This document shows, piece by piece, positions 37,528 to 57,158 of a stretch of DNA of 64,000 nucleotides; within the stretch, counting starts at the first letter, position 1, and every line of letters begins with the position of its first letter. Origin of the DNA: Sneathiella marina (lineage in GTDB: Bacteria; Pseudomonadota; Alphaproteobacteria; Sneathiellales; Sneathiellaceae); the NCBI RefSeq assembly GCF_023746535.1, contig NZ_CP098747.1, positions 1,308,364 through 1,372,363 on the forward strand, in the 5' to 3' direction. Below the pieces are notes generated by a model. That model searched no databases and was not told the origin of the DNA. It saw only the letters and a program-made list of their open reading frames with translations. Both the position numbers and the translations under genes were made by a program.

Positions 37528-37542
37528 AAGGCTAAAGGTTTG

Positions 37543-38277
37543 ATGCAGGATAAATTGGGGTTCTCGATCGATAGCTGGAGTGCCTGGGCGCCGGGGTTAG
37601 AGAGCCCCGAGGCTTGGAGGGACTGGTACAGTGACCGTCAGGAACTCCCTAGGGCCGAAGGAATTCCGGACGTTCGGGATCTCCCTGCCGGTATGCGCCG
37701 GCGTCTTTCCTTGCTAGGAAAGATGGCCTTGCGAGTGGCCTTGGATGCAGGACAAGCTGATACGACCCGGATTGTCTTTAGCTCTCGTTATGGAAATGTT
37801 TTGCAAATGCTGCAGCTATTACAGACGATGGCTGTGGACGAGCCAATTTCTCCAACCGGATTTGGAATGTCGGTTCATAATTCTCTTGTTGGCATGCTGT
37901 CAATTATCACAAAAAATGTTCGATCTCAAACGGCGATTGCTGCGGGATCAGAGAGTTTTTGCATGGGATTGGTAGAGGCGCTAGGGCTTCTGGCAGAGAA
38001 TCCGCATGAGCCAGTTATGCTGATTCATTGCGATGATGTATTGCCGGAATTCTACACACCTTTCCAGGATCATTCCGTTAGGCAATGTGCACTGGCTCTG
38101 GTGATTACATCGCAAAACCCGGCACAAAATCATTTGACGTTGAATTTTGCCGGTGGGCGGGCAGCCGCTGGACAGGATGATCCCATTGCAAGTTTTCTAA
38201 AGTTTATGATTGGCGGTCTTGATGACTGGTCGTGGACCGGCGCCCAGGGTAAATGGTCGTGCCACAATCATGTATAG
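37543..38277 (+). CDS. apeC: Chain-length factor, ketosynthase-like (ApeC)
   Basis: A 244-residue truncated ketosynthase-like protein, the PF13723-type N-terminal ketosynthase homologue. The segment where condensing enzymes carry the nucleophilic Cys reads TAIAAGSESF (130-139) with no Cys in the expected position, so it cannot condense by itself. In aryl-polyene clusters such a protein pairs with an active ketosynthase to set chain length. Synteny with the E. coli and Xenorhabdus clusters supports ApeC. ATG 37543 is used; a TTG at 37540 is adjacent. Its last codons overlap the acyltransferase start by eight bases. Confidence 0.87.
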   Translation: MQDKLGFSIDSWSAWAPGLESPEAWRDWYSDRQELPRAEGIPDVRDLPAGMRRRLSLLGKMALRVALDAGQADTTRIVFSSRYGNVLQMLQLLQTMAVDEPISPTGFGMSVHNSLVGMLSIITKNVRSQTAIAAGSESFCMGLVEALGLLAENPHEPVMLIHCDDVLPEFYTPFQDHSVRQCALALVITSQNPAQNHLTLNFAGGRAAAGQDDPIASFLKFMIGGLDDWSWTGAQGKWSCHNHV

Positions 38278-39043
38278 GCGCCTTAATTATTGTTGGCGGT
38301 TAGCAGGAACCGGCATTGCATTCGCCAGCTTCGGGTTAGGCGGCTTGTTTATGACATTGGTTGTGTTCAAAATTATTGCTGTCGTTACGCCAGACAGGAA
38401 CCTGCGGATTAAGCGTGTCCGTCATGTAATTTACTCTACTTTTCGGCTTTTCGTTTACATGCTGCGTATCAGCGGTGTTATCAATTCCCGATTTTACGCA
38501 GTCGAAAAATTGAACAAATGCCGCGGGGCGCTCATAGTTGCCAATCACCCCTCCTTACTGGATACCGTCTTTTTGATGTCCCAGATGCCAAACGTACAAT
38601 GCATCATTAAATACGAGCTTTGGGAGAATAGGTTTCTGGGCGGCGTCATGCGCGCAGCCGGATATATTCGAAATGATGGGGACGTTCAAGCTCTACTCGA
38701 TCAATGCAAGAATTCGCTGGAAATGGGACAAAATATTCTTATTTTTCCTGAAGGAACGAGAACAGTGCCGGGACAAAGGGTAAAATTTCAAAGGGGATTT
38801 GCTAATATAGCTGTTTATTTTTCGACACCGATACAATTGGTGACAATAAAATGCGATCCGTCAACCTTAGCGAAAGGAAGTCCGTGGTATGATATTCCGT
38901 CACGGCAGTCATTATTTGATATTACTTTTGACGAACAACTGGACATGAGCGATTATCTGCGGCATGAACCGCGGTCAATAAAAGTTCGCAGATTAACAGA
39001 CGAACTTGAACAATATTATGGTAGAAAGCTAAGTTATGAATGA
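38270..39043 (+). CDS. apeD: Lysophospholipid-type acyltransferase (ApeD)
   Basis: A 257-residue PlsC-family acyltransferase with one N-terminal hydrophobic segment (residues 15-40), the NHPSLLD motif giving His93 and Asp98, and FPEGTR at 159-164. Aryl-polyene operons carry such an enzyme, thought to attach the polyene chain to a lipid. ATG 38270 overlaps the apeC stop; an upstream start at 38210 would run deep into apeC and is not needed. Next gene apeE overlaps by eight bases. Confidence 0.88.
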   Translation: MYRRLNYCWRLAGTGIAFASFGLGGLFMTLVVFKIIAVVTPDRNLRIKRVRHVIYSTFRLFVYMLRISGVINSRFYAVEKLNKCRGALIVANHPSLLDTVFLMSQMPNVQCIIKYELWENRFLGGVMRAAGYIRNDGDVQALLDQCKNSLEMGQNILIFPEGTRTVPGQRVKFQRGFANIAVYFSTPIQLVTIKCDPSTLAKGSPWYDIPSRQSLFDITFDEQLDMSDYLRHEPRSIKVRRLTDELEQYYGRKLSYE

Positions 39044-39305
39044 GCTGGAACTAGAGATTAAGAAACTTGTTATCTCGACATTGAACCTGGAAGATATTAC
39101 TCCAGAGGAGATTGAAAGCGAAGAAATGTTATTTGTCGATGGGCTCGGCCTCGATTCAATCGATGCACTTGAATTGGGTGTCGAGATTCAGAAAACCTAT
39201 GGCGTAAAAATAAACGCACAGAATGAAGATGTAAAAGAACATTTCGCTTCCATCCGAAGCCTTGCTATTTTCATCTCTTCTGAAAGGAAGGCAATGAGCG
39301 CATGA
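39036..39305 (+). CDS. apeE: Acyl carrier protein 1 (ApeE)
   Basis: An 89-residue acyl carrier protein. The phosphopantetheine site is GLDSIDALEL with Ser41, and the acidic helix II is typical. It is the first of two tandem carriers; aryl-polyene systems use ApeE and ApeF to hold starter and growing chains. It overlaps apeD by eight bases and ends in ATGA with apeF. Which carrier bears which intermediate cannot be told from sequence. Confidence 0.92.
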   Translation: MNELELEIKKLVISTLNLEDITPEEIESEEMLFVDGLGLDSIDALELGVEIQKTYGVKINAQNEDVKEHFASIRSLAIFISSERKAMSA

Positions 39306-39550
39306 TGACGCGTGAAGAAGTATATAATAGTTTAAGCGAATACCTTCGGGATTTGTTTGAGGTGCCCGCAGAAAATATAACCCCGGATGCAAAGTTGTAT
39401 GAGGATCTTGATCTAGACAGCATCGATGCAGTCGATCTGGTCGTCAAACTGCAGGATTTGACCAATAAGAAAATACCACCTGAAGAATTCAAGACGGTGC
39501 GAACGGTCGATGACGTCGTGGACCGCGTTTATGCGTTATTGGAAGACTAA
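39302..39550 (+). CDS. apeF: Acyl carrier protein 2 (ApeF)
   Basis: An 82-residue acyl carrier protein with DLDSIDAVDL and Ser40 as the attachment site. The ATG at 39302 overlaps the TGA of apeE (ATGA). The two carriers differ considerably around helix II (LEDITPEEIESEE versus VPAENITPDAKLYE), suggesting division of labour. Its end overlaps the next gene, the membrane protein apeG. Confidence 0.92.
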   Translation: MMTREEVYNSLSEYLRDLFEVPAENITPDAKLYEDLDLDSIDAVDLVVKLQDLTNKKIPPEEFKTVRTVDDVVDRVYALLED

Positions 39551-40103
39551 AACACCTCTCCTGGACATTGCCCTTGTTCTGGTAACCTTTTCATATCCAT
39601 TTATTGTTTATTTTGGCCTGAAAACTCTCCCTGCGTGGATTATTGGGTTGGGCTTGATCGTATTTTTACTGGTGCGAATGCTATTAAGCAAAAAACGGAA
39701 GAAATCTGAGTTCCTGATATTTTCTTTAGTTCTGGCCATGACAGGCGTTCTTTTCCTGATTGACCACAGCCTTGCAATTAAGTCCTATCCCATTCTTATG
39801 AATATTTCTTTCGCAATGGTCTTTGGGTATTCGCTATTATACCCGCCGACCATCATTGAGAGAATTGCTCGCTTAAGAGAGCCGGATTTGGACGCGCGGG
39901 GCGTCCGTTACACCCAGAAGGTAACGATCGCATGGGTGGTGTTTTTTGTTGCCAATGGTGCTGTTTCTGCCTGGACTGCTGTTTATGGATCGCTGGAATT
40001 ATGGACTATTTATAATGGATTTATTTCATATATATTAATCGGCTTGATGTTTGGGTTTGAGTTCATTATTCGTTTGTTCGTTAAACAAAAGAAAGTAAGC
40101 TAA
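39531..40103 (+). CDS. apeG: COG4648-type membrane protein (ApeG)
   Basis: A 190-residue inner-membrane protein with about five to six transmembrane segments: LDIALVLVTFSYPFIVYF, AWIIGLGLIVFLLV, FLIFSLVLAMTGVLFL, ILMNISFAMVFGYSLL, VTIAWVVFFVANGAVS and a C-terminal helix. The position between the second carrier and the ligase is that of the ApeG-type membrane protein of known clusters. Its function is not established. ATG 39531 is used; an ATG at 39510 in the same frame overlaps apeF by more. Confidence 0.82.
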   Translation: MRYWKTKTPLLDIALVLVTFSYPFIVYFGLKTLPAWIIGLGLIVFLLVRMLLSKKRKKSEFLIFSLVLAMTGVLFLIDHSLAIKSYPILMNISFAMVFGYSLLYPPTIIERIARLREPDLDARGVRYTQKVTIAWVVFFVANGAVSAWTAVYGSLELWTIYNGFISYILIGLMFGFEFIIRLFVKQKKVS

Positions 40104-40106
40104 GAA

Positions 40107-41459
40107 GTGCAATTTTTCCCTCTGTCAACACTTTTGGCATCCGGCAGGCCAGACGATTTTGTTGTGGCCGTTTTGAATGGCGGCGCGCAACATTTTGCCA
40201 CCTTCCGTACAGACATTGTTGCGACAATTCACCGGCTGAAGGAACAAGGCGTGGCGCGTGTCGTCTTGTCCACCGAAGACAGTTATAGCTGCGCCGTTGG
40301 TTTTTTTGCGGCATTGTATGCGAACTGCCGCATTGTTATTCCTCCCAACAATCTTTCCGGGATGTTGATAAACTTCGTCACACGAGATTGCCCGCATCTG
40401 AGCGATACCACATATGGGGACAATCCCCATTTTATAAAAATTGGGGGAGCCGCGAGCGGCCAGTTCAATTTCGAAGAACTTGACCCGGAAAAATGCTGGC
40501 TCGAATTCTTCACGTCAGGTTCCACCGGTTCACCGCAGAAAATACCGAAAACTCTTTTCCAGATTGACGAAGAACTGGTTGTTTTACAGAAAAACTGGGG
40601 AGAAATGTTATCGGCAGCTGCGACTTTAGGAACGGTTTCCCATCAACATATTTATGGTTTGTATTTCAGAGTGCTCTGGCCGCTATGCGCTGGTCGTCCC
40701 TTTTATGCGGAAAGGTTCGAAATTTGGGAAGAACTGATTGCTCAGGCACCTTCACGAAGCTGTTTTGTTTCCAGCCCGGCCCATCTGTCCCGTATCCCGC
40801 CCTTTGATCCTCTGTCAGCCAATCAAAATCCCCTAATGATACTTTCCGCCGGTGGTCCGTTGAATTTCAAATCCTCTCGAAATGCGGCTAAGATATTTGG
40901 TACATATCCCACTGAAATATTCGGCAGTACTGAAACGGGTGGTATCGCTTTTCGCCAGCAAGAAACAGCGACAACGCCGTTCAGTCCCCTATTGGGCATG
41001 GAAGTCAGGATCGATCAGATTGGTAAGCTCAGCGTTAAGTCCAAATACACCGATAAACGGGATTGGGCGGAAACCAATGATATCGCGAAGCTTTTTGAAG
41101 ATGGTAGATTTCTACTGATTGGCCGGGCAAACCAGTTTGTAAAAATTGAGGGAAAACGGATTTCATTGGCGGAAATAGAAAAATATCTGTTGCGCTCTGA
41201 TTTGATCGCCGATGCAATTGCCGTGGTTCTTAACGATGAACGCGCATCATTGGCGGCTGCCATAGAACTCACCGAAGCGGGCTGGCAGTTACATGAGAAA
41301 ATTGGACCGTTTCGACTTAACCGCCATTTACGGCATTTTTTGAATATGTATCTTGAATCTGCAGCTTTGCCCCGGCGTTGGAGATTTGTTCAGAGGCTGC
41401 CTCTCAACAGTCAGGGAAAACGCGTTCAAAAAGAAATCGATGAACTGTTTGAGGGCTGA
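40107..41459 (+). CDS. apeH: Acyl-activating ligase, AMP-forming (ApeH)
   Basis: A 450-residue adenylate-forming enzyme, shorter than typical CoA ligases. The ATP loop is TSGSTGSPQK (136-145), and EIFGSTETGG and the later RFLLIGRANQFVKIEGKRIS hinge are present. The C-terminal lid is short, ending LPLNSQGKRVQK, with Lys in the expected catalytic position. In characterised clusters this ligase loads an aryl starter (4-hydroxybenzoate-like) on an acyl carrier protein. It uses a GTG start at 40107, three bases after the apeG stop, with an AAGAA-type sequence before it. Confidence 0.87.
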   Translation: MQFFPLSTLLASGRPDDFVVAVLNGGAQHFATFRTDIVATIHRLKEQGVARVVLSTEDSYSCAVGFFAALYANCRIVIPPNNLSGMLINFVTRDCPHLSDTTYGDNPHFIKIGGAASGQFNFEELDPEKCWLEFFTSGSTGSPQKIPKTLFQIDEELVVLQKNWGEMLSAAATLGTVSHQHIYGLYFRVLWPLCAGRPFYAERFEIWEELIAQAPSRSCFVSSPAHLSRIPPFDPLSANQNPLMILSAGGPLNFKSSRNAAKIFGTYPTEIFGSTETGGIAFRQQETATTPFSPLLGMEVRIDQIGKLSVKSKYTDKRDWAETNDIAKLFEDGRFLLIGRANQFVKIEGKRISLAEIEKYLLRSDLIADAIAVVLNDERASLAAAIELTEAGWQLHEKIGPFRLNRHLRHFLNMYLESAALPRRWRFVQRLPLNSQGKRVQKEIDELFEG

Positions 41460-41485: not shown

Positions 41486-41866
41486 ATGGAAAAGCCCTCT
41501 TCAACGAACTGGTTGGACAGTCAAACGGAGCCTGAAATATTATCGGTGCTGCGAGACGGAAATTTGGTTGAAGTCGATATATTGATGTCCGTGGAATTAT
41601 TTCAGTTTCAAGGACATTTTCCGGAACAACCGATATTTCCCGGCGTTGCGCAATTGGATTGGGCTGCGCGACTGTCAGCAAAATATTTTGGTAATTTAGG
41701 GACTATCGTTGGACTTAGCCAAATTAAATTTACCAATCTGATTGAGCCGGGTGACCGGCTTTGCCTCACCTTAGAATTGCAACCTGAAAAGCGACGTGTT
41801 TTCTTTGCATTTAAACAGGGCGAGAATAAATGCTCGTCCGGTTGCCTAGAACTTAGCCCGAAATGA
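41486..41866 (+). CDS. apeI: Hot-dog dehydratase (ApeI family)
   Basis: A 126-residue hot-dog-fold protein of the FabA/FabZ/ApeI group. The signature FQGHFPEQPIFPGVAQLDW (41-59) includes His44. ApeI and ApeP work together as dehydratase in the iterative polyene chain extension. The stop overlaps the apeJ ATG (ATGA at 41863). Start at ATG 41486. Confidence 0.88.
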   Translation: MEKPSSTNWLDSQTEPEILSVLRDGNLVEVDILMSVELFQFQGHFPEQPIFPGVAQLDWAARLSAKYFGNLGTIVGLSQIKFTNLIEPGDRLCLTLELQPEKRRVFFAFKQGENKCSSGCLELSPK

Positions 41867-43536
41867 CGTTTTCAGCCTGTGCGATTGTCCCCAGCTATAA
41901 CCACTATCTACACATTGATAAGGTGGTCGCAGCAATCCGTGGGCAGAGCGTGCCGGTTATTATTATTGACGACGGGAGTGTTGAACCCGCCAAATCGCAT
42001 TTAGCAAGCCTGCATAATCCTGAAAATGGCGTCACTGTCCGAAGGTTTGAGACGAATGCCGGCAAAGGAAGTGCTGTTATAGAAGGGTTTCGATTGGCCC
42101 TCAATGCAGGACATACACATGCTGTCCAAATCGACGCTGACGGCCAGCATGACTTAAACTCTTTGCCGGGCCTGTTGGATTGGTCCAAATCAGAACCTGA
42201 CGCGCTTATCAGCGGCCTTCCGGTCTATGATGAAACCATTCCAATATCCCGAAAATTGGCGCGATGGCTCACGCATCTTTGGGTATGGGTTGAAACTCTG
42301 TCAACCCATATACCAGATAGCATGTGCGGGTATCGGGTTTATCCACTCGGGCCGGCCATGAAAATTGTAGAAAAGCAAACTGTCGGTCATTATATGGATT
42401 TCGATACCGAAATTATGGTTCGAATGTGCTGGCAGGGAACCCCAATTCGGATGCTGCCGGTAGAGGTTACTTATCCGGATGACAATACGTCAAATTTTAG
42501 GCTGGTTGCGGACAATTGGCGGATTACCAAGATGCATACGCGTTTGGTTCTTGGCATGCTCAGACGCTTTCCAACGGTTTGGAAAAACCGGCCCGCCCCG
42601 CCAGAAAGCAGCAAACATTGGGCAAGGATCAATGAACGAGGGGCCGCCTGGGGCTTGAAGATCGTGTTCGCCCTATATACGTTGCTGGGTTCACGACTAA
42701 GCTGGTACGCAATCCAGCCCATATTGGTTTACTTTTTCCTGACCGGAAGCGTCCAACGACAGGCGTCTTCACAATATTGGCAGCGAATTTATAAACAGAA
42801 AAATATTTCGGGGTCGCCGACCCGATGGCAGCTTTGGTTGCATTATCGTTCCTTTGGGAAAATGGCCCTCGATAAAATATCCGCCTGGTTGGGGGACATA
42901 AAAATCAAGGATCTCGCCATTGATAATATGGAAGAACTGGACCGTCGGGCGAGCTCGGAAACAGGAATTGTGGTTTTCACCTCTCATCTTGGCAATGTTG
43001 AGGTGTGTCGCGCACTGGCGGAGAAAAGAGGCGCGAATAAAATCACGGTTTTCGCCCATACAAAGCATGCAATGCGATTTAACAACTTACTTGCGGCTTA
43101 TAATCCGGCATCAGCAGTTGATGTGATGGAAGTTGAAGACATTGGCCCAGGAACGTTAATCGAGCTTCGCGAGAGACTGGACAGAGGGGATTGGATTGTT
43201 ATTGCCGGGGACCGTATCCCGGTGACCGGGAACAAGAGAACAATTTCTGTCGATTTTTTGGGTTCTCCTGCTCTCTTCTCTCAAGGACCTGTAATTATTG
43301 CATCTCTCCTCAAATCTCCGGTATATATTATGAATTGCGTTCGGGACGGTGAAAAATTTCGGATTTACTTCGATAAGCTTACAGATCAGATAATTTTACC
43401 GCGCCAGAACCGGGATGTGGCAGCAGGAAAATACATCATAGAGTATGTCAAAGCTTTAGAAGAAAAATGCCTTCAATATCCAGACCAATGGTATAACTTC
43501 TTTGACTTTTGGCTGGAAAGTAACGGAAAAAAATGA
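41863..43536 (+). CDS. apeJ: Glycosyltransferase/acyltransferase fusion (ApeJ)
   Basis: A 557-residue fusion. The N-terminal 240 residues are a family 2 glycosyltransferase (SYNHYLHIDKV, VIIIDDGSVEPAKS, QIDADGQHD with the DxD motif). The C-terminal half is an LpxL/HtrB-like acyltransferase with SHLGNVE, GDWIVIAGDRIPV and SKSPVYIMN-like blocks, and a hydrophobic segment lies between the two domains. It is proposed to couple the polyene to a lipid-linked sugar. ATGA overlap with apeI and 25 bases to apeK. Confidence 0.87.
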   Translation: MTFSACAIVPSYNHYLHIDKVVAAIRGQSVPVIIIDDGSVEPAKSHLASLHNPENGVTVRRFETNAGKGSAVIEGFRLALNAGHTHAVQIDADGQHDLNSLPGLLDWSKSEPDALISGLPVYDETIPISRKLARWLTHLWVWVETLSTHIPDSMCGYRVYPLGPAMKIVEKQTVGHYMDFDTEIMVRMCWQGTPIRMLPVEVTYPDDNTSNFRLVADNWRITKMHTRLVLGMLRRFPTVWKNRPAPPESSKHWARINERGAAWGLKIVFALYTLLGSRLSWYAIQPILVYFFLTGSVQRQASSQYWQRIYKQKNISGSPTRWQLWLHYRSFGKMALDKISAWLGDIKIKDLAIDNMEELDRRASSETGIVVFTSHLGNVEVCRALAEKRGANKITVFAHTKHAMRFNNLLAAYNPASAVDVMEVEDIGPGTLIELRERLDRGDWIVIAGDRIPVTGNKRTISVDFLGSPALFSQGPVIIASLLKSPVYIMNCVRDGEKFRIYFDKLTDQIILPRQNRDVAAGKYIIEYVKALEEKCLQYPDQWYNFFDFWLESNGKK

Positions 43537-43561: not shown

Positions 43562-43975
43562 ATGATATCAGCTGACGTTGTCATCAAAACTCAATTCTAT
43601 GATTTGGATCCGATGGAAATCGTGTGGCACGGAAATTATGCTCGGTTTTTTGAACAGGCCCGTTGCGCCCTGCTTGACAAGTTGAACTATAATTATCATC
43701 AAATGAGCGAAAGCGGGTTCGCATGGCCGATTGTTGATATGAGGATAAAATATGTCCGGCCTCTCCGGTTTCCGCAAAGTGTCAAGGTCACTGCAACGCT
43801 CGTCGAATATGAAAACCGATTAAAAATAAATTATCTCATTCAAGATATGAAGAACAATGAAAGGCTGACAAAGGGCTATACTATTCAGGTAGCGATTGAC
43901 AGGAATACGGAAGAAATGATGTTCCAGTCCCCCGTCGCTTTCAGGCAGAAAGTTGAAGAAATACTGTGCGATTAA
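43562..43975 (+). CDS. apeK: Acyl-CoA thioesterase, 4-hydroxybenzoyl type (ApeK)
   Basis: A 137-residue hot-dog thioesterase of the YbgC/4-hydroxybenzoyl-CoA thioesterase group. The family pattern YDLDPMEIVWHGNYARFFEQAR places Asp16 at the catalytic position, followed by FVRPLRFP-like strand IKYVRPLRF. It may release or edit acyl thioesters during polyene assembly. ATG 43562 is 25 bases after the apeJ stop. Its end overlaps the apeL start by ten bases. Confidence 0.88.
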   Translation: MISADVVIKTQFYDLDPMEIVWHGNYARFFEQARCALLDKLNYNYHQMSESGFAWPIVDMRIKYVRPLRFPQSVKVTATLVEYENRLKINYLIQDMKNNERLTKGYTIQVAIDRNTEEMMFQSPVAFRQKVEEILCD

Positions 43976-44574
43976 AACTGGCGTTTTTGACTCTTTCCTT
44001 TTGTTTGATCCTGTATCAACCGACATCTGCGGATCCTGTTCGTCTTGCGCCAGACGAAGGCCTGATGGGAAAGTTTTCTCAATCTCGATTTTTGGCAGGG
44101 TTTGATAAACCAATCATTTCAGCGGGGCAGTTTTTTCTCCTGCCGGGGACAGCGCTGATATGGCAGACGGAAAAACCGTTTAAATCATTTATGGTTATCG
44201 ATGATGAAGGAATAAGCCAATCCGTGGCAGGCAAAGAGATATCAAAATTGAGTATTGCCCAGTTCCCGTCGCTTTCGGTATTGCGAGATGTTCTGGAAGA
44301 TTCTTTAAGTGGAAATTGGGAACCGCTCGAGACTATGACAGGTTCAAAAACTGTAAGAGATACCGACAGTTGGCGATTGGAATTTATTCCAGCGGAATCG
44401 GATGTAAAATTTCCCTTCACTGCCCTGTCATTTGAGATGACCGATTATCTGGACAAGATCGACATAAAAAAAGGAGAGGAAGATAGAGATATCATAACTT
44501 TCTCTGATCAACAAAAGGCGCCTCTTGGCGACGTTCGTAGCGCAGCCCAGAAAAGCCGTCAGGCACCGCTTTGA
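43966..44574 (+). CDS. apeL: LolA-like outer-membrane lipoprotein carrier (ApeL)
   Basis: A 202-residue exported protein starting at GTG 43966 with a signal peptide (MRLKLAFLTLSFCLILY, cleavage near TSA). The rest fits the LolA-type half-barrel seen in aryl-polyene clusters: MGKFSQSRFLAGFDKPIISAG then ALIWQTEKPF. It is thought to carry the polyene lipid across the periplasm with the exporter ApeM. The TGA at the end overlaps the apeM TTG start as TTGA. Confidence 0.84.
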   Translation: MRLKLAFLTLSFCLILYQPTSADPVRLAPDEGLMGKFSQSRFLAGFDKPIISAGQFFLLPGTALIWQTEKPFKSFMVIDDEGISQSVAGKEISKLSIAQFPSLSVLRDVLEDSLSGNWEPLETMTGSKTVRDTDSWRLEFIPAESDVKFPFTALSFEMTDYLDKIDIKKGEEDRDIITFSDQQKAPLGDVRSAAQKSRQAPL

Positions 44575-46895
44575 GCAAAACCGGCTTTTTCACATATCTG
44601 CTGTTGATGATTTGCGCGGCCATTGTAATTTTGGTTCGGTTCTCCAACGGGGTTCCGTTGGAAACCAATATTCTGGCGCTGCTGCCGCCTTCAGGCTCAA
44701 ACGAGTGGGTACAGCAAGCCCAAGCCGCGCAACAATCGAAAGGATCCAGCAGGCTGATCATACTGGTTGGGAATCCAGACTTCAAAGTTGCCCGTGACGC
44801 GGCGGATATGATGCGTAAAGAGCTGATTGAGGGAGGCGTTTTTGATGAGGGTCAAAAGCGATCGGGGGAAATTGGAAGGACCGGCTTTGGACAAGAGCTG
44901 TTTCGGTTTCGCAATAAGCTACTAACAACAGAGGATCGGGACGCGCTTAAAACCGGGGCCGGTCAAAATTTGATGGACCGGGCTCTGGCGCAAATCCTGT
45001 CTCCGCTAACTTTCACAAATTCAACGATGATCCGAGAGGATCCTTTTCTGCTTTTTCCTGCCTATCTACCGTCGCTTGAAAAAAATTCGACTAATTTTCG
45101 AAAGCATAATGATGTTTTGGCGCTTAAAGAAGGCGATCGCTGGTATGTCCTTGTCGATGGAGTCCTTGCGGGCTCTGCTTTTGATCAGTCATTGCAGGCA
45201 GATGTCTTTGGCGCAATCCATCATGCCCAAAACAAGATAAACTCTAGCTTTGATGATGTGGATATTCTGAAAACCGGCGCTGTATTTTATGGGCGGGAAG
45301 CGTATCGACAGGCCGAGCGAGAAGCCACCCTGATTGGCAGTGTCTCTCTCATCGGGATCATTTTGCTTAACCTGCTAATTTTCAGAAGCATTAAGCCTTT
45401 GTTTTTGAGCTTGTTGGCTATTGCTTCGGGAATAACGGGCGGGTTGGCGGTTGTCCTGCTATTTTTTGGTCAATTGCATCTGCTGGCTCTTGTTTTTGGC
45501 GCAGGTTTAATTGGGATTGCAGTAGATTACGCATTTCATTATTTTTGTGAACGATTTCAAAGTGAGGCGCCACCCGCCAAAAAGCGGGTAGCGGCGATCA
45601 AATCGGGCTTGACGCTTGGATTAGTCAGTTCGGTTTTAGGTTTCTTAACACTCTCCCTGACTCCCTTTCCAGGATTGCAGCAAATTGCGCTTTTTTCAGC
45701 CGCGGGGCTGACAATGGCTTTTTTGACTGTTCTGTATGTTTTCCCGCTTTTGGATCGTTCGCAAAACTTTTCCCATGGTGAGAAAATACTTCGACTTTCC
45801 ATGGTAGTGCATAACTTCTGGACAAGGGAAAATTCTAAAAAAATTAAAGTTATGGTTTTGGCGATCCTCCTGCTTGTTGGTGTTTTTGGAGCCGTGAAAA
45901 TCAAGATTGATGACGATGTGCGCAATCTGCAAACACTTCCCGCAGATTTGCAGGCAGAAGAGCTTGAAATACGCCTGCTGGCCGGTATTCGTAATGAAAC
46001 ACATCAACTGCTTGTGCGCGGAGCAACTTCAGAAGACGTTTTGCAACTGGAAGAAAAACTGGGCGTGGAACTGGACCGGCTCGTGGAGACAGGCGCCATA
46101 GCGGGATATCAGATGGTTTCGCAAATTGTCCCCTCGGTTTTGCGGCAAAAAGACAATCAGGATCTTGTCTCAAATATCCTGCTTCCGAAATTGGAAGAGC
46201 ATATGGAGGCTATCGGCTTGCCGGGCACGATACCCTATGATCTAACGGACAACACATTGGACCTTGATGCCTTTTCAAACACGGACCTTCCCTATGGCCT
46301 GCAACGTTTGAGGCTCTTGAACACACCTGGTACCGTCGTTCATTCCATTTCTCTTTCTGGTGTGGAAAATACAGATCTTCTCCTAAAATTATCCGGTTCA
46401 GCGGGAAATGTTACTTTGATCAATCAAGCTGATGATCTAAGTAAAACATTTGGAACCTACCGGTATCGTGCTTTGCTTATGTTGCTTGTGGCCTATTGCG
46501 TTGTCTGGGTCTTCTTATCCTTGAGATATGGGGTGTTGGGAGCGCTTCAGGCGATGTCACCCTCTATTGGGGCTGTGCTGCTGACGCCTTGTATCATTGC
46601 TCTTTTCGGGGAAACGTTCACGTTTTTCAACGCAATGTCTCTCATATTGATATTTGCGATCGGTCTTGACTATGCAATATTTAATCGCGAGGCCTTCGGT
46701 GCTCGCAAGCCGCGTGCAATGTTGGCCAATGGCTTATCCGCCATATCGACAATTCTTGCATTCGGGCTGCTTGCGTTGAGTGATACATATGCTATTCATG
46801 CGTTCGGCGTTACTATTCTAGTTGGGATAGTTCTTGCCTACTGTCTGGCACCTCTGGCATCCAACAATAAGAAACAACCCTTGAAGCCCTTGTAA
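44571..46895 (+). CDS. apeM: MMPL/RND-family exporter (ApeM)
   Basis: A 774-residue RND-type transporter of MMPL family with an N-terminal transmembrane segment, a periplasmic loop (about 30-225), five helices (about 230-395), a second periplasmic domain and five C-terminal helices (from about 635). GIAVDYAFHYF and GLDYAIFNRE are the paired polar motifs of the proton relay in each half. It probably extrudes the finished polyene lipid. It starts at TTG 44571 overlapping the apeL stop. The next gene starts two bases after its stop. Confidence 0.9.
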   Translation: MSKTGFFTYLLLMICAAIVILVRFSNGVPLETNILALLPPSGSNEWVQQAQAAQQSKGSSRLIILVGNPDFKVARDAADMMRKELIEGGVFDEGQKRSGEIGRTGFGQELFRFRNKLLTTEDRDALKTGAGQNLMDRALAQILSPLTFTNSTMIREDPFLLFPAYLPSLEKNSTNFRKHNDVLALKEGDRWYVLVDGVLAGSAFDQSLQADVFGAIHHAQNKINSSFDDVDILKTGAVFYGREAYRQAEREATLIGSVSLIGIILLNLLIFRSIKPLFLSLLAIASGITGGLAVVLLFFGQLHLLALVFGAGLIGIAVDYAFHYFCERFQSEAPPAKKRVAAIKSGLTLGLVSSVLGFLTLSLTPFPGLQQIALFSAAGLTMAFLTVLYVFPLLDRSQNFSHGEKILRLSMVVHNFWTRENSKKIKVMVLAILLLVGVFGAVKIKIDDDVRNLQTLPADLQAEELEIRLLAGIRNETHQLLVRGATSEDVLQLEEKLGVELDRLVETGAIAGYQMVSQIVPSVLRQKDNQDLVSNILLPKLEEHMEAIGLPGTIPYDLTDNTLDLDAFSNTDLPYGLQRLRLLNTPGTVVHSISLSGVENTDLLLKLSGSAGNVTLINQADDLSKTFGTYRYRALLMLLVAYCVVWVFLSLRYGVLGALQAMSPSIGAVLLTPCIIALFGETFTFFNAMSLILIFAIGLDYAIFNREAFGARKPRAMLANGLSAISTILAFGLLALSDTYAIHAFGVTILVGIVLAYCLAPLASNNKKQPLKPL

Positions 46896-46896
46896 A

Positions 46897-48129
46897 ATGA
46901 CCGAATACCAAGATAAATATGATGTTGTAATTATCGGCGCAGGACCCGCGGGATCTCTTGCTGCTACGATGCTGGCTCAGCGCGGAGTCAATGTTCTTGT
47001 CATTGAGAAATCCGGGTTTCCGCGATTTGTAATTGGCGAAAGCCTGCTACCACAAAGTATGGTATATCTGGAGAAAGCTGGCATTCTGGGCGCCGTAAAG
47101 GACGCGGATTTTCAAACAAAAAATGGCGCAAATTTTTCAGATGATACCAGGTTCAGTTCAATTGATTTTAGCGACAAATTCACCGAAGGCTGGTCCTCAA
47201 CCTATCAGGTACAACGGGAAAAGTTTGACAGTTTGCTGGCACGCGAAGCAGAAAAAGCCGGGGCGAAAATCTGGTTTGAAAACACCGTGTTGGATGTGCA
47301 GTTTGATAGTGAAATTGTTTCTATAAAGGGATGCGGGCAGCAGGGTGAGTATTTGATTAAATGCCGCTTTGTCGTTGATGCAAGTGGTTATGGACGGGTA
47401 TTGCCTCGCTTGCTGAACCTTGGCCTGCCGTCCACATTTCCCGTAAGACATGCATTATTCACACATGTTGACGACTCATTGGACCGGCAGGATTTTGATC
47501 GCGAGAAAATACTTATTACCGTTCACCCCAAGCATAGCGACATATGGTTCTGGCTCATTCCTTTTTCAGAAGGCGTCTCCTCTGTCGGCGTTGTTTGTTC
47601 TGCCGAGCATATGGCGCGCTATCACGGATCGGCCTCTGATAAACTTTGGGCGCTGATCGGCGAAACCACGCAATTGAACGATTATTTGAAGGGCGCGACG
47701 GAGCGACGGCCGGTCAGTGAGCTTTCAGGATATTCGTCAAACGTTTCGAGAATGTGCAATTCGCAGTTCGCTTTGCTCGGCAATGCGGGAGAATTTCTGG
47801 ATCCGGTGTTTTCATCAGGTGTGACAATTGCCTTTAAATCCGCAGATTTGCTCATTGACCCGTTAATGCGCCAGTTGTCGGGAGAAGATGTCGACTGGGA
47901 GCAGGATTTTGCGGCACCTCTCAAAGTAGGCGTCGATTGTTTCAGGGCTTTCGTCGAGGCATGGTATGACGGAGAATTGCAGACTATCCTCTTTAATCCG
48001 CCGCCTTATGATAATCCCATTAAAAAAATGATCGTGTCAATTTTAGCGGGATATGCCTGGGATGAGAAAAACCCGTTTGTAAAACAGGGGCGGCGGTACA
48101 TAGATTTATTGGCGGCACAATGCGCCTGA
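46897..48129 (+). CDS. FAD-dependent halogenase-like oxidoreductase in the aryl-polyene operon
   Basis: A 410-residue flavoprotein of the flavin-dependent halogenase/monooxygenase superfamily. It has the FAD loop GAGPAGS (14-20), FPRFVIGESLLP (41-52) shared with halogenases, and the diagnostic WxWxIP as WFWLIP at 217-222. A KxGAxF stretch places Lys75 near the catalytic Lys79 of tryptophan halogenases. The C-terminal FLDPVFSSGVTIAFKSA is also typical. Halogenation of the aryl head is a reasonable hypothesis; an NAD(P)H-dependent oxidation is the alternative. The gene is two bases after apeM and overlaps apeN by ten. Confidence 0.8.
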   Translation: MTEYQDKYDVVIIGAGPAGSLAATMLAQRGVNVLVIEKSGFPRFVIGESLLPQSMVYLEKAGILGAVKDADFQTKNGANFSDDTRFSSIDFSDKFTEGWSSTYQVQREKFDSLLAREAEKAGAKIWFENTVLDVQFDSEIVSIKGCGQQGEYLIKCRFVVDASGYGRVLPRLLNLGLPSTFPVRHALFTHVDDSLDRQDFDREKILITVHPKHSDIWFWLIPFSEGVSSVGVVCSAEHMARYHGSASDKLWALIGETTQLNDYLKGATERRPVSELSGYSSNVSRMCNSQFALLGNAGEFLDPVFSSGVTIAFKSADLLIDPLMRQLSGEDVDWEQDFAAPLKVGVDCFRAFVEAWYDGELQTILFNPPPYDNPIKKMIVSILAGYAWDEKNPFVKQGRRYIDLLAAQCA

Positions 48130-48623
48130 CAGTTTTTCAGCTTCTTGTTTTTCTCACACTCGCCGGCTGCAGCACCGCAGAGCAACGGCGTTCAGATGCC
48201 CCTGGCTGGACGTTGCCTGACAAGCCGCGGGAAGTTGTGCAAATTCTAAGTGGCCATTACGGTGATCAGAATTTTCAGCTGCAAGTCAGGCTGAGCATGT
48301 CAGCCGAGCAGATGCGGATGGTTGGCCTGGACTCGCTTGGACGCCGTGCGTTTGAAATCAATTGGGATGATCAGGGATTGACATCTGGTCGCGCCAGCTG
48401 GGTATCCGAAGAGCTGCAGGCACTGGATATTTTAAAAGTTGTCGTCGTTACCTATTGGCCCCAGGATACGGAGGTATATCGGCAATTTTTAGACGCGAAA
48501 GAGAAACAACTTCAGATTAAGTATGAATCCAGTCGTCAGAATGCGTGGAATGAAACGGTGCAGATTACGGATCCTAAAAACGATTATGAAATGACAATTA
48601 TTTCTTACGAGATCGATAAATGA
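48120..48623 (+). CDS. apeN: DUF3261 lipoprotein (ApeN-like)
   Basis: A 167-residue lipoprotein with lipobox LAGC (Cys about 17) following a hydrophobic leader from MRLTVF. The DUF3261 features include ILSGHYGDQNFQLQVRL and GLDSLGRRAFEINWDDQGL. It is a regular member of aryl-polyene clusters between exporter and ketosynthase genes. An outer-membrane role in delivering the polyene is plausible but unproved. It overlaps the halogenase-like gene by ten bases and apeO by four (ATGA). Confidence 0.82.
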   Translation: MRLTVFQLLVFLTLAGCSTAEQRRSDAPGWTLPDKPREVVQILSGHYGDQNFQLQVRLSMSAEQMRMVGLDSLGRRAFEINWDDQGLTSGRASWVSEELQALDILKVVVVTYWPQDTEVYRQFLDAKEKQLQIKYESSRQNAWNETVQITDPKNDYEMTIISYEIDK

Positions 48624-49804
48624 CGGTCGGGTATTACTTGAATGCCCTCGGCATCGTTAATCCTTTGGGAGCTGGAAAATCCGAGGTAAGCACGGGATTG
48701 TTTGCCGGACGAACAGGCGGAATGTCATTGCAATCGGGCAAATTACCGGATCGATCCGTCTTCATCGGGCAGGTTGGATCGACGCTTCCCTCCCTATCAC
48801 CGGAACTGGAAATTTATGACAGCCGCAATAATCGACTGCTTTTATCTGCGTTACTTGAAATTGATGCGGATATTCGTGCGGTAATCTCAAAATATGGTCC
48901 CGACAGGGTTGCCGTTATTCTGGGAACAAGCACGTCGGGAATTGGAGATAACGAAGAGGGTATTTCACAGAAAGTTGCAACGGGGCTTTTTCCAGAATCC
49001 TTTCATTACGAACGACAGGACAACGCGTCCTTAGCCTATTTTACGAGGGATTATTACAACCTGACGGGCCCGGCGATGACGATTTCTACCGCCTGCACAT
49101 CCAGTGCCAAAACCCTGGCGTCGGCGCAACGCTTGATGAAGGCGGGTTTTTGCGATGCGGCAATCGTCGGCGGGGCGGATACGATCTGCAGGTTAACATT
49201 GAACGGTTTTGCTTCCCTGGAATTATTATCAGAGGACCTGTGCTTGCCGTTCAGCCGTAACCGCAACGGCATCAATATTGGAGAAGGCGCAGCTGTTTTC
49301 GTCATGTCGCGTGAGGAGAGCGACGTGCGGGTTGCAGGTATTGGTGAAACGTCAGACGCGCATCATATGAGTACGCCTGATCCCACGGGGGCAGGGGCAT
49401 CGAACGCGATGAAGATCGCGCTTGAAAAAAGCGGGATGAGTGCTTCCGATATCGGCTATCTTAATTTACACGGAACCGCAACGGTATTAAATGATCGGAT
49501 GGAAGCCAGTGCTGTCGGCGACGTACTGGGCCAGGTTCCTGCCAGTTCCACAAAGGCGATGACGGGGCATACGCTGGGGGCGGCAGGCAGTACTGAACTG
49601 GCTTTTCTATGGCTTGCGATGCAATCTAAGTATTCGAACGGTCTCCTCCCGCCTCATATATGGGATGGCCAGGTAGATGACGACATAGAAAAAATAAATC
49701 TGGTTTCCTTGGGTAAAAAAATAGATCATGGTAGTCGTGCTATGATGACGAATTCTTTTGCGTTTGGCGGTAACAATATTAGCGCTGTTCTGGTGAAGGA
49801 GTAA
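48620..49804 (+). CDS. apeO: Beta-ketoacyl synthase (ApeO)
   Basis: A 394-residue full-length type II ketosynthase with all three catalytic residues: Cys159 (STACTSSA), His284 (LHGTATV) and His317 (TGHTLGAAG). It should condense malonyl units onto a carrier-bound chain and is likely the partner of the Cys-less ApeC factor in a heterodimer, as shown for other clusters. ATGA overlap with apeN. Five bases separate it from apeP. Confidence 0.93.
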   Translation: MTVGYYLNALGIVNPLGAGKSEVSTGLFAGRTGGMSLQSGKLPDRSVFIGQVGSTLPSLSPELEIYDSRNNRLLLSALLEIDADIRAVISKYGPDRVAVILGTSTSGIGDNEEGISQKVATGLFPESFHYERQDNASLAYFTRDYYNLTGPAMTISTACTSSAKTLASAQRLMKAGFCDAAIVGGADTICRLTLNGFASLELLSEDLCLPFSRNRNGINIGEGAAVFVMSREESDVRVAGIGETSDAHHMSTPDPTGAGASNAMKIALEKSGMSASDIGYLNLHGTATVLNDRMEASAVGDVLGQVPASSTKAMTGHTLGAAGSTELAFLWLAMQSKYSNGLLPPHIWDGQVDDDIEKINLVSLGKKIDHGSRAMMTNSFAFGGNNISAVLVKE

Positions 49805-49809
49805 TTGCC

Positions 49810-50229
49810 ATGCAACCTTGCAATTATCCAGTTAATGATCTTCTCTATCACGCGGTGCCGATGATCCTTATCGATCGTATCGAGGCATATGATTCAGAGA
49901 CTGTTCACTCCTTTGTTGAAATTACACCTGACAGCCCCTTTATGGCGGATGATGTCGTCCCCTCTTATGTGAGTGTTGAATATATGGCGCAATCCGTTGC
50001 GGCATATAGTGGCATAAAGGCTAAAAACTCTGGCGGGAATGTGAAAATCGGATATTTGGCAAGTGCCAGAAAGGTGGAATTGAATGTCCCCTTTTTTTCA
50101 ATCGGAGATAAATTGGAAATTACTGTTCAGATGATATGGAATGAGGCGCCAATGGCCGTATTTGATTGTCGTATTGAGCGAGAAGATGTGGTTGTCGCCT
50201 CTTCACGGCTTAACGTATACCAACCGTAA
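49810..50229 (+). CDS. apeP: Hot-dog dehydratase (ApeP family)
   Basis: A 139-residue hot-dog protein of the ApeP family, with YHAVPMILIDRI (His14) at the N-terminus and VEYMAQSVAAYSG (Glu57) in the central helix. These two residues fit the dehydratase active site shared across two subunits. It is expected to dehydrate the 3-hydroxyacyl chains with ApeI. ATG 49810 has AAGGAGTAAT before it, a good ribosome-binding site. apeQ follows after 18 bases. Confidence 0.88.
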   Translation: MQPCNYPVNDLLYHAVPMILIDRIEAYDSETVHSFVEITPDSPFMADDVVPSYVSVEYMAQSVAAYSGIKAKNSGGNVKIGYLASARKVELNVPFFSIGDKLEITVQMIWNEAPMAVFDCRIEREDVVVASSRLNVYQP

Positions 50230-50247: not shown

Positions 50248-50973
50248 ATGCAAAGAAGAATATTAGTAACCGGCGCGAGCGGTGGAATTGGCCGGGCAAT
50301 CGCGGTCAAGCTTGCAAAAGACGGTTTTGAAATCGCTGTCCATTACGGCCGGAACAAGGATGCTGGACAGGAAACAGTTGCGCAGATCAAGGCCGATGGC
50401 GGGGACGCCAGCCTCGTCCAGTTTGACGTGTCAAACCGCACGCAATGCCGGGATATTCTGGAGGCTTATATTGCCGAGCATGGGTCATTTTATGGGATTG
50501 TACTGAATGCGGGTATTACCCGGGATACAGCTTTTCCCGCAATGACGGATGACGATTGGGATGAGGTGATACAGACAAACCTGGACGGATTTTATAACGT
50601 GCTTCGTCCCGTAACCTTGCCCATGGTTTCTGCGCGTAAAGGGGGACGAATTGTCGTTCTGTCTTCCCTTTCAGGCGTCATGGGAAACCGTGGACAGGTA
50701 AATTACAGTGCGTCCAAATCAGGATTGATTGGCGCAACGAAGGCGCTCGCTCTGGAACTGGCAAAACGAAAAATCACGGTGAATTCTGTTGCTCCCGGGC
50801 TCATTGAAACCTCTATGACGGATGATTTGCCAATGGATGAAATAATGAAAATGATTCCCCTTAGACGTGTCGGGACACCCTCTGAGGTCGCGTCGACCGT
50901 GTCTTTCCTCTGCTCTGACGGGGCGGCATATATTACACGTCAGGTCATCTCCGTAAATGGAGGTATGGCATAA
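50248..50973 (+). CDS. apeQ: 3-oxoacyl-ACP reductase, SDR (ApeQ)
   Basis: A 241-residue FabG-type reductase. The NADPH loop TGASGGIG is at 8-15, NAGI at 87-90, and the Ser140-Tyr153-Lys157 triad is in YSASK. It reduces the keto group after each condensation cycle; enoyl reduction is absent, which leaves conjugated double bonds. It shares one base with the apeR start (TAATG). Confidence 0.93.
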   Translation: MQRRILVTGASGGIGRAIAVKLAKDGFEIAVHYGRNKDAGQETVAQIKADGGDASLVQFDVSNRTQCRDILEAYIAEHGSFYGIVLNAGITRDTAFPAMTDDDWDEVIQTNLDGFYNVLRPVTLPMVSARKGGRIVVLSSLSGVMGNRGQVNYSASKSGLIGATKALALELAKRKITVNSVAPGLIETSMTDDLPMDEIMKMIPLRRVGTPSEVASTVSFLCSDGAAYITRQVISVNGGMA

Positions 50974-52205
50974 TGCGGCGCGTTGTCGTTACCGGTATGG
51001 CGGGTGTTACATCGCTTGGCAATAGCTGGTCTGAGGTGCGGGAAAAAATGAAAGCCGGTAAAACCGGTATCCGCCGCATGGAAAGCTGGGACTTTTATAC
51101 GGGCTTGAATACGAGACTTGCCGGGCCGGTCGAAGGATTTGATGTGGATAAAAGATATCCCAGGAAAATGCTTCGCAGTATGGGACCTGTTTCCAAGATG
51201 GCTGTTTATGCGACGGAAATGGCCTTGGAATCTGCGGGCTTAACAGATGATCCTTTGCTGACCTCCGGCAGAATGGGCGTGGCTTATGGGTCATCATTTG
51301 GAAGTACTCAGCCCGTTGTTGCCTTTACGGATTTGATCCGAGACGGGTATTCCCGTGATTTGTCAGCAACCAGCTATGTGAAGATGATGGGCCATACGAC
51401 GGCGGTAAATATTGGCGTTTTTTATGGCCTTTCCGGCCGTGTTATCCCGACATCAAGTGCCTGCACTTCCGGCAGTCAAGGGATTGGGTATGCCTATGAA
51501 GCAATCAGGTATGGCATGCAGGATGCCATGGTTGCCGGTGGCGCCGAGGAGCTTTGTCCAACCATGGCGGCGGTCTTTGATACTTTATATGCCACGAGCA
51601 TAAAGAACGATACACCGGACCTGTCCCCGCGACCCTTTGATAAGGACCGGGACGGATTGGTTATCGGAGAAGGGGCGGGAACGCTCATTTTGGAAGAATA
51701 TGAGCAGGCAAAGGCGCGTGGCGCGACAATTTTTGCTGAAATCATTGGATACAAGACGAACTCTGACGGTCGGCATATCACTAACCCGACGCAAGAAACC
51801 ATGGAGTTGGCCATGAGCGGAGCGCTTGCGGATGCCGGGATGAGTTATCAGGATATAGATTTTATCAGTGGCCACGGAACGGCGACAGAGCAGGGTGATA
51901 TCGCGGAAAGCCAGGCCACTAATACCGTCATGGGAAGTACGACGCCTATAAATTCTCTAAAGAGTTATTTTGGTCATAGTCTGGGCGCGTGCGGTGCTAT
52001 CGAGGCATGGCTTAGCATTGAAATGATGCGAGAGGGCTGGTTTGCTCCAACTGCGAATCTGGACGAAGTTGATCCTTTATGCGCTGACGTGGATTATATA
52101 ATGGAAAGCGGAAGGTCAATTTCAGCCGAGCATTTTGTGTCGAACAATTTTGCTTTTGGCGGCATTAACACGTCATTGGTTTTTCGAAACGCCTCGGCAA
52201 TTTAA
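50973..52205 (+). CDS. apeR: Beta-ketoacyl synthase (ApeR)
   Basis: A 410-residue FabF-like ketosynthase with Cys164 (SSACTSGSQG), His301 (GHGTATE) and His335 (YFGHSLGACG). In aryl-polyene systems ApeR is proposed to act in initiation, loading the aryl starter. ATG 50973 overlaps the apeQ stop by one base. It is the last recognisable gene of the operon; the PilZ gene 37 bases away is convergent and no clear hairpin separates them. Confidence 0.92.
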   Translation: MRRVVVTGMAGVTSLGNSWSEVREKMKAGKTGIRRMESWDFYTGLNTRLAGPVEGFDVDKRYPRKMLRSMGPVSKMAVYATEMALESAGLTDDPLLTSGRMGVAYGSSFGSTQPVVAFTDLIRDGYSRDLSATSYVKMMGHTTAVNIGVFYGLSGRVIPTSSACTSGSQGIGYAYEAIRYGMQDAMVAGGAEELCPTMAAVFDTLYATSIKNDTPDLSPRPFDKDRDGLVIGEGAGTLILEEYEQAKARGATIFAEIIGYKTNSDGRHITNPTQETMELAMSGALADAGMSYQDIDFISGHGTATEQGDIAESQATNTVMGSTTPINSLKSYFGHSLGACGAIEAWLSIEMMREGWFAPTANLDEVDPLCADVDYIMESGRSISAEHFVSNNFAFGGINTSLVFRNASAI

Positions 52206-55175: not shown

Positions 55176-55327
55176 GAGGGGCAACGTGATCGATCAAAAT
55201 CCCGCTTACTCTAGACTCAACTCATCAGAAGCACTAGGTTGGAAAAACAGTGATTTTTTGAATAAACAAATATTTTTAGTCATTTCCGGATCATCGCTCC
55301 GGACTTATTTAGAGATGAATAATCTTG

Positions 55328-57157: not shown

Positions 57158-57158
57158 T

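Follow-up and report, generated by a model that had tools for sequence, protein, structure and literature searches.

The head groups of aryl polyenes are described as being tailored by methylation or halogenation (PMC8253772). Genes labelled as halogenases in aryl-polyene clusters are already known, with their activity assumed (PMC3691225): they occur in the xanthomonadin clusters of two Xanthomonas species, and in the Figure 5 legend there, which deals with selected examples, L. enzymogenes and Xylella fastidiosa are the only ones said to have no halogenase gene, the L. enzymogenes pigment being described as giving no bromine pattern (PMC3691225). In the account of the arc clusters of Azoarcus BH72, arcA is labelled a halogenase and adjoins arcB, arcC, arcD and arcE, and the set includes a methyltransferase (arcM), a deacetylase (arcN), an exporter (arcP) and a LolA protein (arcQ); arcuflavin was proposed from mass spectrometry to be non-brominated, NMR not being possible (PMC3949708). 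The list of ape genes for Escherichia coli CFT073, as far as it is given, has no flavoprotein (PMC8253772). On the enzyme side, a review describes the WxWxIP motif as a proposed means of preventing hydroxylation and favouring halogenation (PMC10696468), and for the halogenase BrvH the Lys is described as essential, activity being lost without it (PMC5945002).

The window analysed here is a stretch of 64,000 nucleotides from Sneathiella marina (NZ_CP098747.1, positions 1,308,364 to 1,372,363). By Pfam and NCBIfam matches, it contains an ape-type cluster in which apeC to apeM lie upstream of a flavoprotein gene and apeN to apeR downstream, in the same C to R order as in E. coli CFT073. In CFT073, apeM (MMPL) is followed directly by apeN (DUF3261), with no flavoprotein gene between them, whereas the window has one at that place; given the shared order, the window gene occupies the apeM-apeN junction. 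The features are as follows, all on the + strand.

37540..39043, +: apeC (chain-length factor) and apeD (acyltransferase); PF13723, PF01553.
39036..39550, +: apeE and apeF, acyl carrier proteins; NF006617, NF003757.
39510..40103, +: apeG-like membrane protein, named from its position and from tblastn matches at the equivalent place in other ape clusters; no match in Pfam.
40107..41459, +: apeH, AMP-binding ligase for the aryl starter; PF00501, with 4-coumarate--CoA ligase as best NCBIfam match, below its cut-off.
41486..41866, +: apeI dehydratase; PF22818.
41863..43536, +: apeJ, fused glycosyltransferase/acyltransferase; PF00535 and PF03279.
43562..44574, +: apeK thioesterase (PF13279) and apeL LolA-like protein (PF03548, below cut-off).
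44571..46895, +: apeM, MMPL/RND-type transporter of 774 aa, its stop 1 nt before the flavoprotein gene; PF03176.
46897..48129, +: halogenase-superfamily flavoprotein P0001, clade A; translation, PF04820, matches to 3NIX and PltA.
47119..47136, +: KNGANF, codons 75-80 of that gene, with Lys75 aligned to the catalytic Lys of halogenases; alignments.
47545..47562, +: WFWLIP, codons 217-222, the WxWxIP motif (W217-F-W219-L-I221-P222); translation and alignments.
47782..47823, +: halide-loop segment NAGEFLDPVFSSGV, codons 296-309, in which N296 and E299 mark clade A; alignment.
48120..48623, +: apeN, DUF3261 LolB-like protein, overlapping the 3' end of the flavoprotein gene by 10 nt; PF11659.
48620..49804, +: apeO ketosynthase; NF006618.
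49810..50229, +: apeP dehydratase; PF22817.
50248..50973, +: apeQ ketoreductase; TIGR01831.
50973..52205, +: apeR ketosynthase; NF006587.

A reading made earlier from the sequence alone (the sequence-only reading) had placed this gene in the middle of apeM-apeN with overlapping ends. The placement and the 3' overlap with apeN hold, but the 5' end is separated from apeM by a 1-nt gap. CFT073 also has apeA and apeB. We detected no E. coli-type apeB in the S. marina genome at E 1e-15, and the Pfam and NCBIfam matches of the window ORFs include no methyltransferase gene adjacent to the flavoprotein gene. Downstream of the operon, at 55325-61514 of the window, lie genes for an Omp85-family protein and then a TamB-domain protein, a TamA/TamB-like pair.

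P0001 is the 410-aa product of the open reading frame at 46897-48129. It scores 95.3 bits against PF04820 (Trp_halogenase; cut-off 21), with FAD_binding_3 as the next Pfam match, so that its resemblance to this superfamily is above chance. The best 25 of its 93 NCBIfam matches all fall under their own cut-offs, and none of those families therefore claims it; they are headed by a CmlS-type halogenase, the geranylgeranyl-reductase family, QhpG and LodB. The geranylgeranyl-reductase match (TIGR02032) reaches 118.7 bits and is sub-threshold (cut-off 158.8). A GxGxxG flavin-binding motif is present as GAGPAG at 14-19, and F300, P303, S306 and G308 form an FxxPxxSxG motif, which we take to be the halide-loop motif of flavin-dependent halogenases. 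The sequence-only reading had also reported Lys75 in a KxGAxF context and WxWxIP at 217-222, and both are there, as KNGANF and WFWLIP. On these matches, P0001 belongs to the PF04820 superfamily of flavin-dependent halogenases and retains the Lys, the WxWxIP and the halide-loop motif of that superfamily.

A scan of 397 genomes of the phylum, Pseudomonadota, with P0001 as query (E<=1e-40) matched 65 genomes. Fifty-two of the 397, the S. marina genome included, carry a close homologue (about 44% identity to P0001 and more), a set that we call clade A, and 13 of the 65 carry a more distant protein, group B, at 31-35% identity. For each of the 13 distant loci and the 51 clade A loci of the other genomes, a stretch of up to 20 kb was searched by tblastn, the queries being the ape proteins of the window and some others. 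Ape-type clusters hold 50 of the 51 clade A loci: 44 have at least 5 of 7 core ape genes within 20 kb, and six are divergent and lie beside apeB. In 43 of the 44, the first ape gene detected upstream is apeM, the exception being L059, where apeM was undetected. In the six divergent f72 loci (a single genus, g145), the flavoprotein gene is transcribed away from apeC-apeJ/K and adjoins an apeB homologue, and the genes detected in the fetched stretch end at a lyase gene or apeK. The remaining locus, L051, has an apeQ-like gene as its sole ape-like neighbour in a stretch of at most 20 kb.

Within the window's genus, apeM, the flavoprotein gene and apeN occur together in 14 of 14 loci, some of them on short contigs. 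Of its 24 genomes, 14 have both apeJ and the flavoprotein gene and eight have neither; in the other two (G002 and G013, both fragmented assemblies) one of the genes stands alone. An apeJ-like gene (E<=1e-30) is found in 93 of the 397 phylum genomes; among 26 loci from apeJ-bearing genomes that have no clade A protein (L166-L191), 25 are ape-like by the core-gene test, and L166 runs to a contig end. Clade A thus sits in ape-type clusters nearly wherever it is found, yet is missing from many ape-like loci, and within one kind of ape cluster the flavoprotein gene is a stable but accessory component. E. coli-type apeB, found in 17 of the 397 genomes, shows no firm pattern with respect to it (eight with clade A and nine without); the eight comprise the six f72 genomes, where the two genes are adjacent, G062, where apeB is on another contig, and G270, with a weak match elsewhere.

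On named replicons, the matches listed (best 40 of 55 records) include 23 close homologues, from the genera Cupriavidus, Caballeronia, Burkholderia, Pseudoalteromonas, Acinetobacter, Aureispira and Neisseria; the one of Cupriavidus metallidurans CH34 (H2), an environmental strain, is 54% identical to P0001. In two Neisseria gonorrhoeae records (H22 and H23) the homologue is matched in two pieces, and in the 2.0-Mb genome of L099 the flavoprotein gene is broken while other ape genes are still detected, so the gene may be dispensable in genomes of these kinds. In three genomes of the window's genus (G009, G015 and G019; loci L119, L120 and L124), the flavoprotein is only about 50% identical to P0001, apeJ is split, and the flavoprotein clusters in the tree with that of another family (f36); these represent a second type of ape cluster in the genus, perhaps an acquired one.

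Searches of PDB sequences place P0001 closest to 3NIX (E 9.4e-97), and PltA, ChlB4, Mpy16, CndH and CmlS match it at E 7e-45 to 5e-32, with PltA at 7.4e-45. An AlphaFold model built from five sequences has a pLDDT of 65.1 and a pTM of 0.68, with values <50 at 74-101, which holds Lys75, and at 296-304. A fold search with this model returned 3NIX first, then PltA, ChlB4, Mpy16, CndH, FasV (8ZOP) and RadH; lower-ranked were flavin hydroxylases and a reductase. The alignments listed have TM-scores <0.6 and rmsd >10 A, the query model being weak at the active site. Identities to P0001 in the fold-search alignments are 23-26% for PltA, ChlB4 and Mpy16. By both sequence and fold, then, P0001 matches the halogenases of the PltA/Mpy16/ChlB4/Bmp2 kind, CndH, CmlS, RadH and FasV, and on its sequence it is related to the halogenase branch with PltA, Mpy16, CndH and CmlS.

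Our alignment comprised 69 clade A rows, 22 group B rows, six PDB halogenases (PltA, Mpy16, ChlB4, CndH, RadH and FasV, 8ZOP), 3NIX, one viral protein (L207) and one reductase-type outgroup (L213); two L099 fragments of the broken gene copy, each <380 aa, were left out of the row counts. The 100-row tree was built by a quick method with SH-aLRT support only, its A and B labels follow the better-scoring query, and it has long branches at L213, L190, RadH, FasV and L207. Clade A and 3NIX form one branch with P0001 inside it (SH-aLRT 99), and the B rows are spread over several branches: a 16-row core (99), sets of three and two (f57), and L190. Together, A, B and 3NIX make up a larger branch (95) that leaves out the viral protein and the six PDB halogenases, so that none of the six proven halogenases tested lies inside clade A or the A+B group.

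Had a structural alignment shown Lys75 not to be equivalent to the halogenase lysine, the sequence-only reading would have given up its halogenase; in the sequence alignment the lysine is conserved throughout clade A (69 of 69 rows) and group B (22 of 22), in six of six PDB halogenases, in 3NIX and in the viral protein, and replaced by M in the reductase-type outgroup. W217, W219, I221, P222, F300, P303, S306 and G308 are likewise invariant across the 69 clade A rows, the B rows and the six PDB halogenases. Three positions set clade A apart: N296 (69/69 clade A rows; D in 6/6 PDB halogenases), E299 (66/69; 0/6) and G278 (68/69; D in 6/6), and at each of them 3NIX agrees with clade A. A GNA-type loop occurs in tryptophan halogenases, so N296 alone is no argument against halogenation. 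At the position presumed to correspond to PrnA Glu346, P0001 has F305, as do five of the six PDB halogenases. The glutamate of tryptophan halogenases (E346 of PrnA) thus appears to be replaced in P0001, whose loop reads DPVFSSG against the EPLES-type loop of a homologue in the same genome, L126.

That homologue, outside the window at G000:C1:2108945-2110315, is a second protein, of tryptophan-halogenase type (572 aa; PF04820, 464 bits), with the Trp 6-halogenases and PrnA as best PDB matches and 6FRL, which we take to be BrvH, lower. An FDH-like protein with about 30% identity to P0001 is also present on six IMG/VR viral contigs (L207-L212), and L207, the one aligned, keeps the K, WxWxIP and FSSG.

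What P0001 does in the pathway is a separate matter. The halogenase superfamily, the conserved residues, the fixed place in ape clusters and the retention together with the cluster in the genus are observed; substrate, halogenation itself, ring position and timing we infer. In our judgement P0001 is tentatively an FAD-dependent enzyme that tailors the head group of the aryl polyene by halogenating it, the likeliest single reaction although we hold it at somewhat under an even chance. A separate reductase would supply FADH2, which would react with O2; the resulting flavin hydroperoxide would yield hypohalous acid by oxidising a halide bound at the FSSG loop; the acid would pass through a tunnel behind the WxWxIP wall to Lys75; and Lys75 would position it to attack the phenolic ring at the head of the aryl polyene or of its starter, probably ortho to the hydroxyl. 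The PF04820 match, the PDB halogenase matches by sequence and fold, the Lys, WxWxIP and FxxPxxSxG kept in every clade A row, the tie to ape clusters, the joint presence or absence with apeJ in the genus and a genome in which no E. coli-type apeB was detected all point this way, as do the roles described for WxWxIP (PMC10696468) and for the Lys of BrvH (PMC5945002) and the head-group tailoring described for aryl polyenes (PMC8253772). P0001 retains the residues that hypohalous acid chemistry is thought to require in its branch. Several points count against it: the hydroxylase QhpG uses the fold and the tryptophan wall for another reaction (PMC7876137); the pathway of ArcA, which by gene order would be a group B protein, has a product proposed to be non-brominated; the N296/E299/G278 state, shared with 3NIX, separates clade A in the alignment from the six PDB halogenases; and the proven halogenases tested all fall outside the A+B group in the tree. 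It also counts against it that, for clade A clusters, the open-access literature searched, as far as its text was available, yielded no halogenated product. The prediction of a halogenated polyene thus keeps its footing in superfamily, motifs and a stable place in the ape operon, and loses the argument that ran through xanthomonadins.

The neighbouring genes bear on an alternative, possible but rather unlikely, in which P0001 would act as a flavin monooxygenase, hydroxylating the polyene or its aryl head group without halide chemistry, with a neighbouring methyltransferase then methylating the product in some clusters. At the ORF level, a gene for a class I SAM methyltransferase separates the flavoprotein gene from apeN in L058, L064, L071 and L196, and by tblastn a methyltransferase match occurs there in eight loci of genus g140 in all; counting apeB in the six f72 loci, a methyltransferase gene adjoins the flavoprotein gene in two lineages. 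This adjacency fits head-group tailoring by halogenation or hydroxylation alike, and the window cluster has no such neighbour, which speaks against hydroxylation followed by methylation there. The distinct clade A signature would suit a change of chemistry, and the dihydroxylating monooxygenase QhpG is described as structurally most like the halogenase CmlS (PMC7876137), so the fold and the tryptophan wall can serve hydroxylation. Against it, none of the 69 clade A rows has lost Lys75 or the WxWxIP wall, which is proposed to work against hydroxylation (PMC10696468).

Another gene of these clusters, for an aromatic amino acid ammonia-lyase, lies between apeJ and apeK in L053-L094 and others, and is found in 31 of 44 clade A loci compared with 5 of 24 ape loci without clade A (Fisher p 1e-4, a test that ignores relatedness). 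It is missing from the window cluster and from all 10 loci of the window's genus, and the one PF00221 gene of the S. marina genome is distant from the window. These lyases have FHGCG or YHGCG close to what we take to be the usual selectivity site, and inspection of these residues gave no clear answer.

That P0001 works instead at the export stage, reducing, desaturating or isomerising the polyene or its lipid anchor, seems improbable to us. Its place between the transport genes apeM and apeN, with apeM so regularly the nearest upstream gene, and the below-cut-off TIGR02032 match would suit such a role, but the reductase-type outgroup L213 is without K75, the GES at 47-49, W217 and the FSSG loop, all of which clade A keeps, and the f72 loci have the gene beside apeB and not at apeM-apeN. 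Position within a cluster also says little about the step at which an enzyme acts. To some function that we have not foreseen we give only a small chance.

Returning to halogenation of the head group as the preferred reading, its comparison with known systems depends on which proteins are compared. Eight aligned group B flavoproteins are 27-32% identical to P0001; group B proteins share its superfamily and catalytic residues, and their full clusters differ from the window's in having another KS/CLF pair, a polysaccharide deacetylase and other methyltransferases. The full set (other KS/CLF pair, polysaccharide deacetylase, transporter and acyl carrier protein) is present at L193, L194, Caballeronia zhejiangensis (L204) and Azospirillum ramasamyi (L205), and L106 has most of it; its gene content matches the arc clusters of Azoarcus BH72. 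Among the 13 group B loci of the phylum, 10 have at least two other aryl-polyene genes in the stretch and three (L104, L107 and L109) have none, nor were any seen in the stretch around a Variovorax plasmid locus (L131). One ORF, next to the group B gene at L102, was considered as a XanB2 candidate and rejected, having no Pfam or PDB match, and it gives no ground for placing XanB1 in group B.

Because the xanthomonadin/arcuflavin-type clusters that we read carry group B and not clade A, the xanthomonadin comparison concerns a cousin of P0001. The sequence-only reading had reasoned from brominated xanthomonadins to a halogenated polyene here, a step undercut by cluster flavoproteins that fall outside clade A, no Xanthomonas protein being among them, and weakened again by the arcuflavin cluster, which has a halogenase-labelled gene and a product proposed to be non-brominated (PMC3949708). 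That P0001 is a brominase equivalent to the xanthomonadin-cluster enzyme, giving a xanthomonadin-like brominated pigment (a sub-case of halogenation, with which its chances overlap), is accordingly very doubtful despite the common superfamily and the halogenase genes of two Xanthomonas clusters (PMC3691225), given that group B relationship and an ape-type cluster in the window.

Overall, clade A stands apart from the xanthomonadin/arcuflavin-type enzymes, so brominated xanthomonadins say little about ape-type enzymes, and clade A spans many ape clusters, so that the chemistry of one enzyme would be informative for the whole clade. The closest PDB match of P0001 is 3NIX, a protein of Cytophaga hutchinsonii, a member of the Bacteroidota, annotated only as a flavoprotein/dehydrogenase; it is 40% identical to P0001 over its full length, shares the K, WxWxIP, FSSG and N296/E299/G278 signature, and lies in the clade A branch together with an Aureispira anguillae homologue. 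The six aligned PDB halogenases, by comparison, share the K, WxWxIP and FxxPxxSxG with P0001 and differ in having D at 296, D at 278 and no E at 299.
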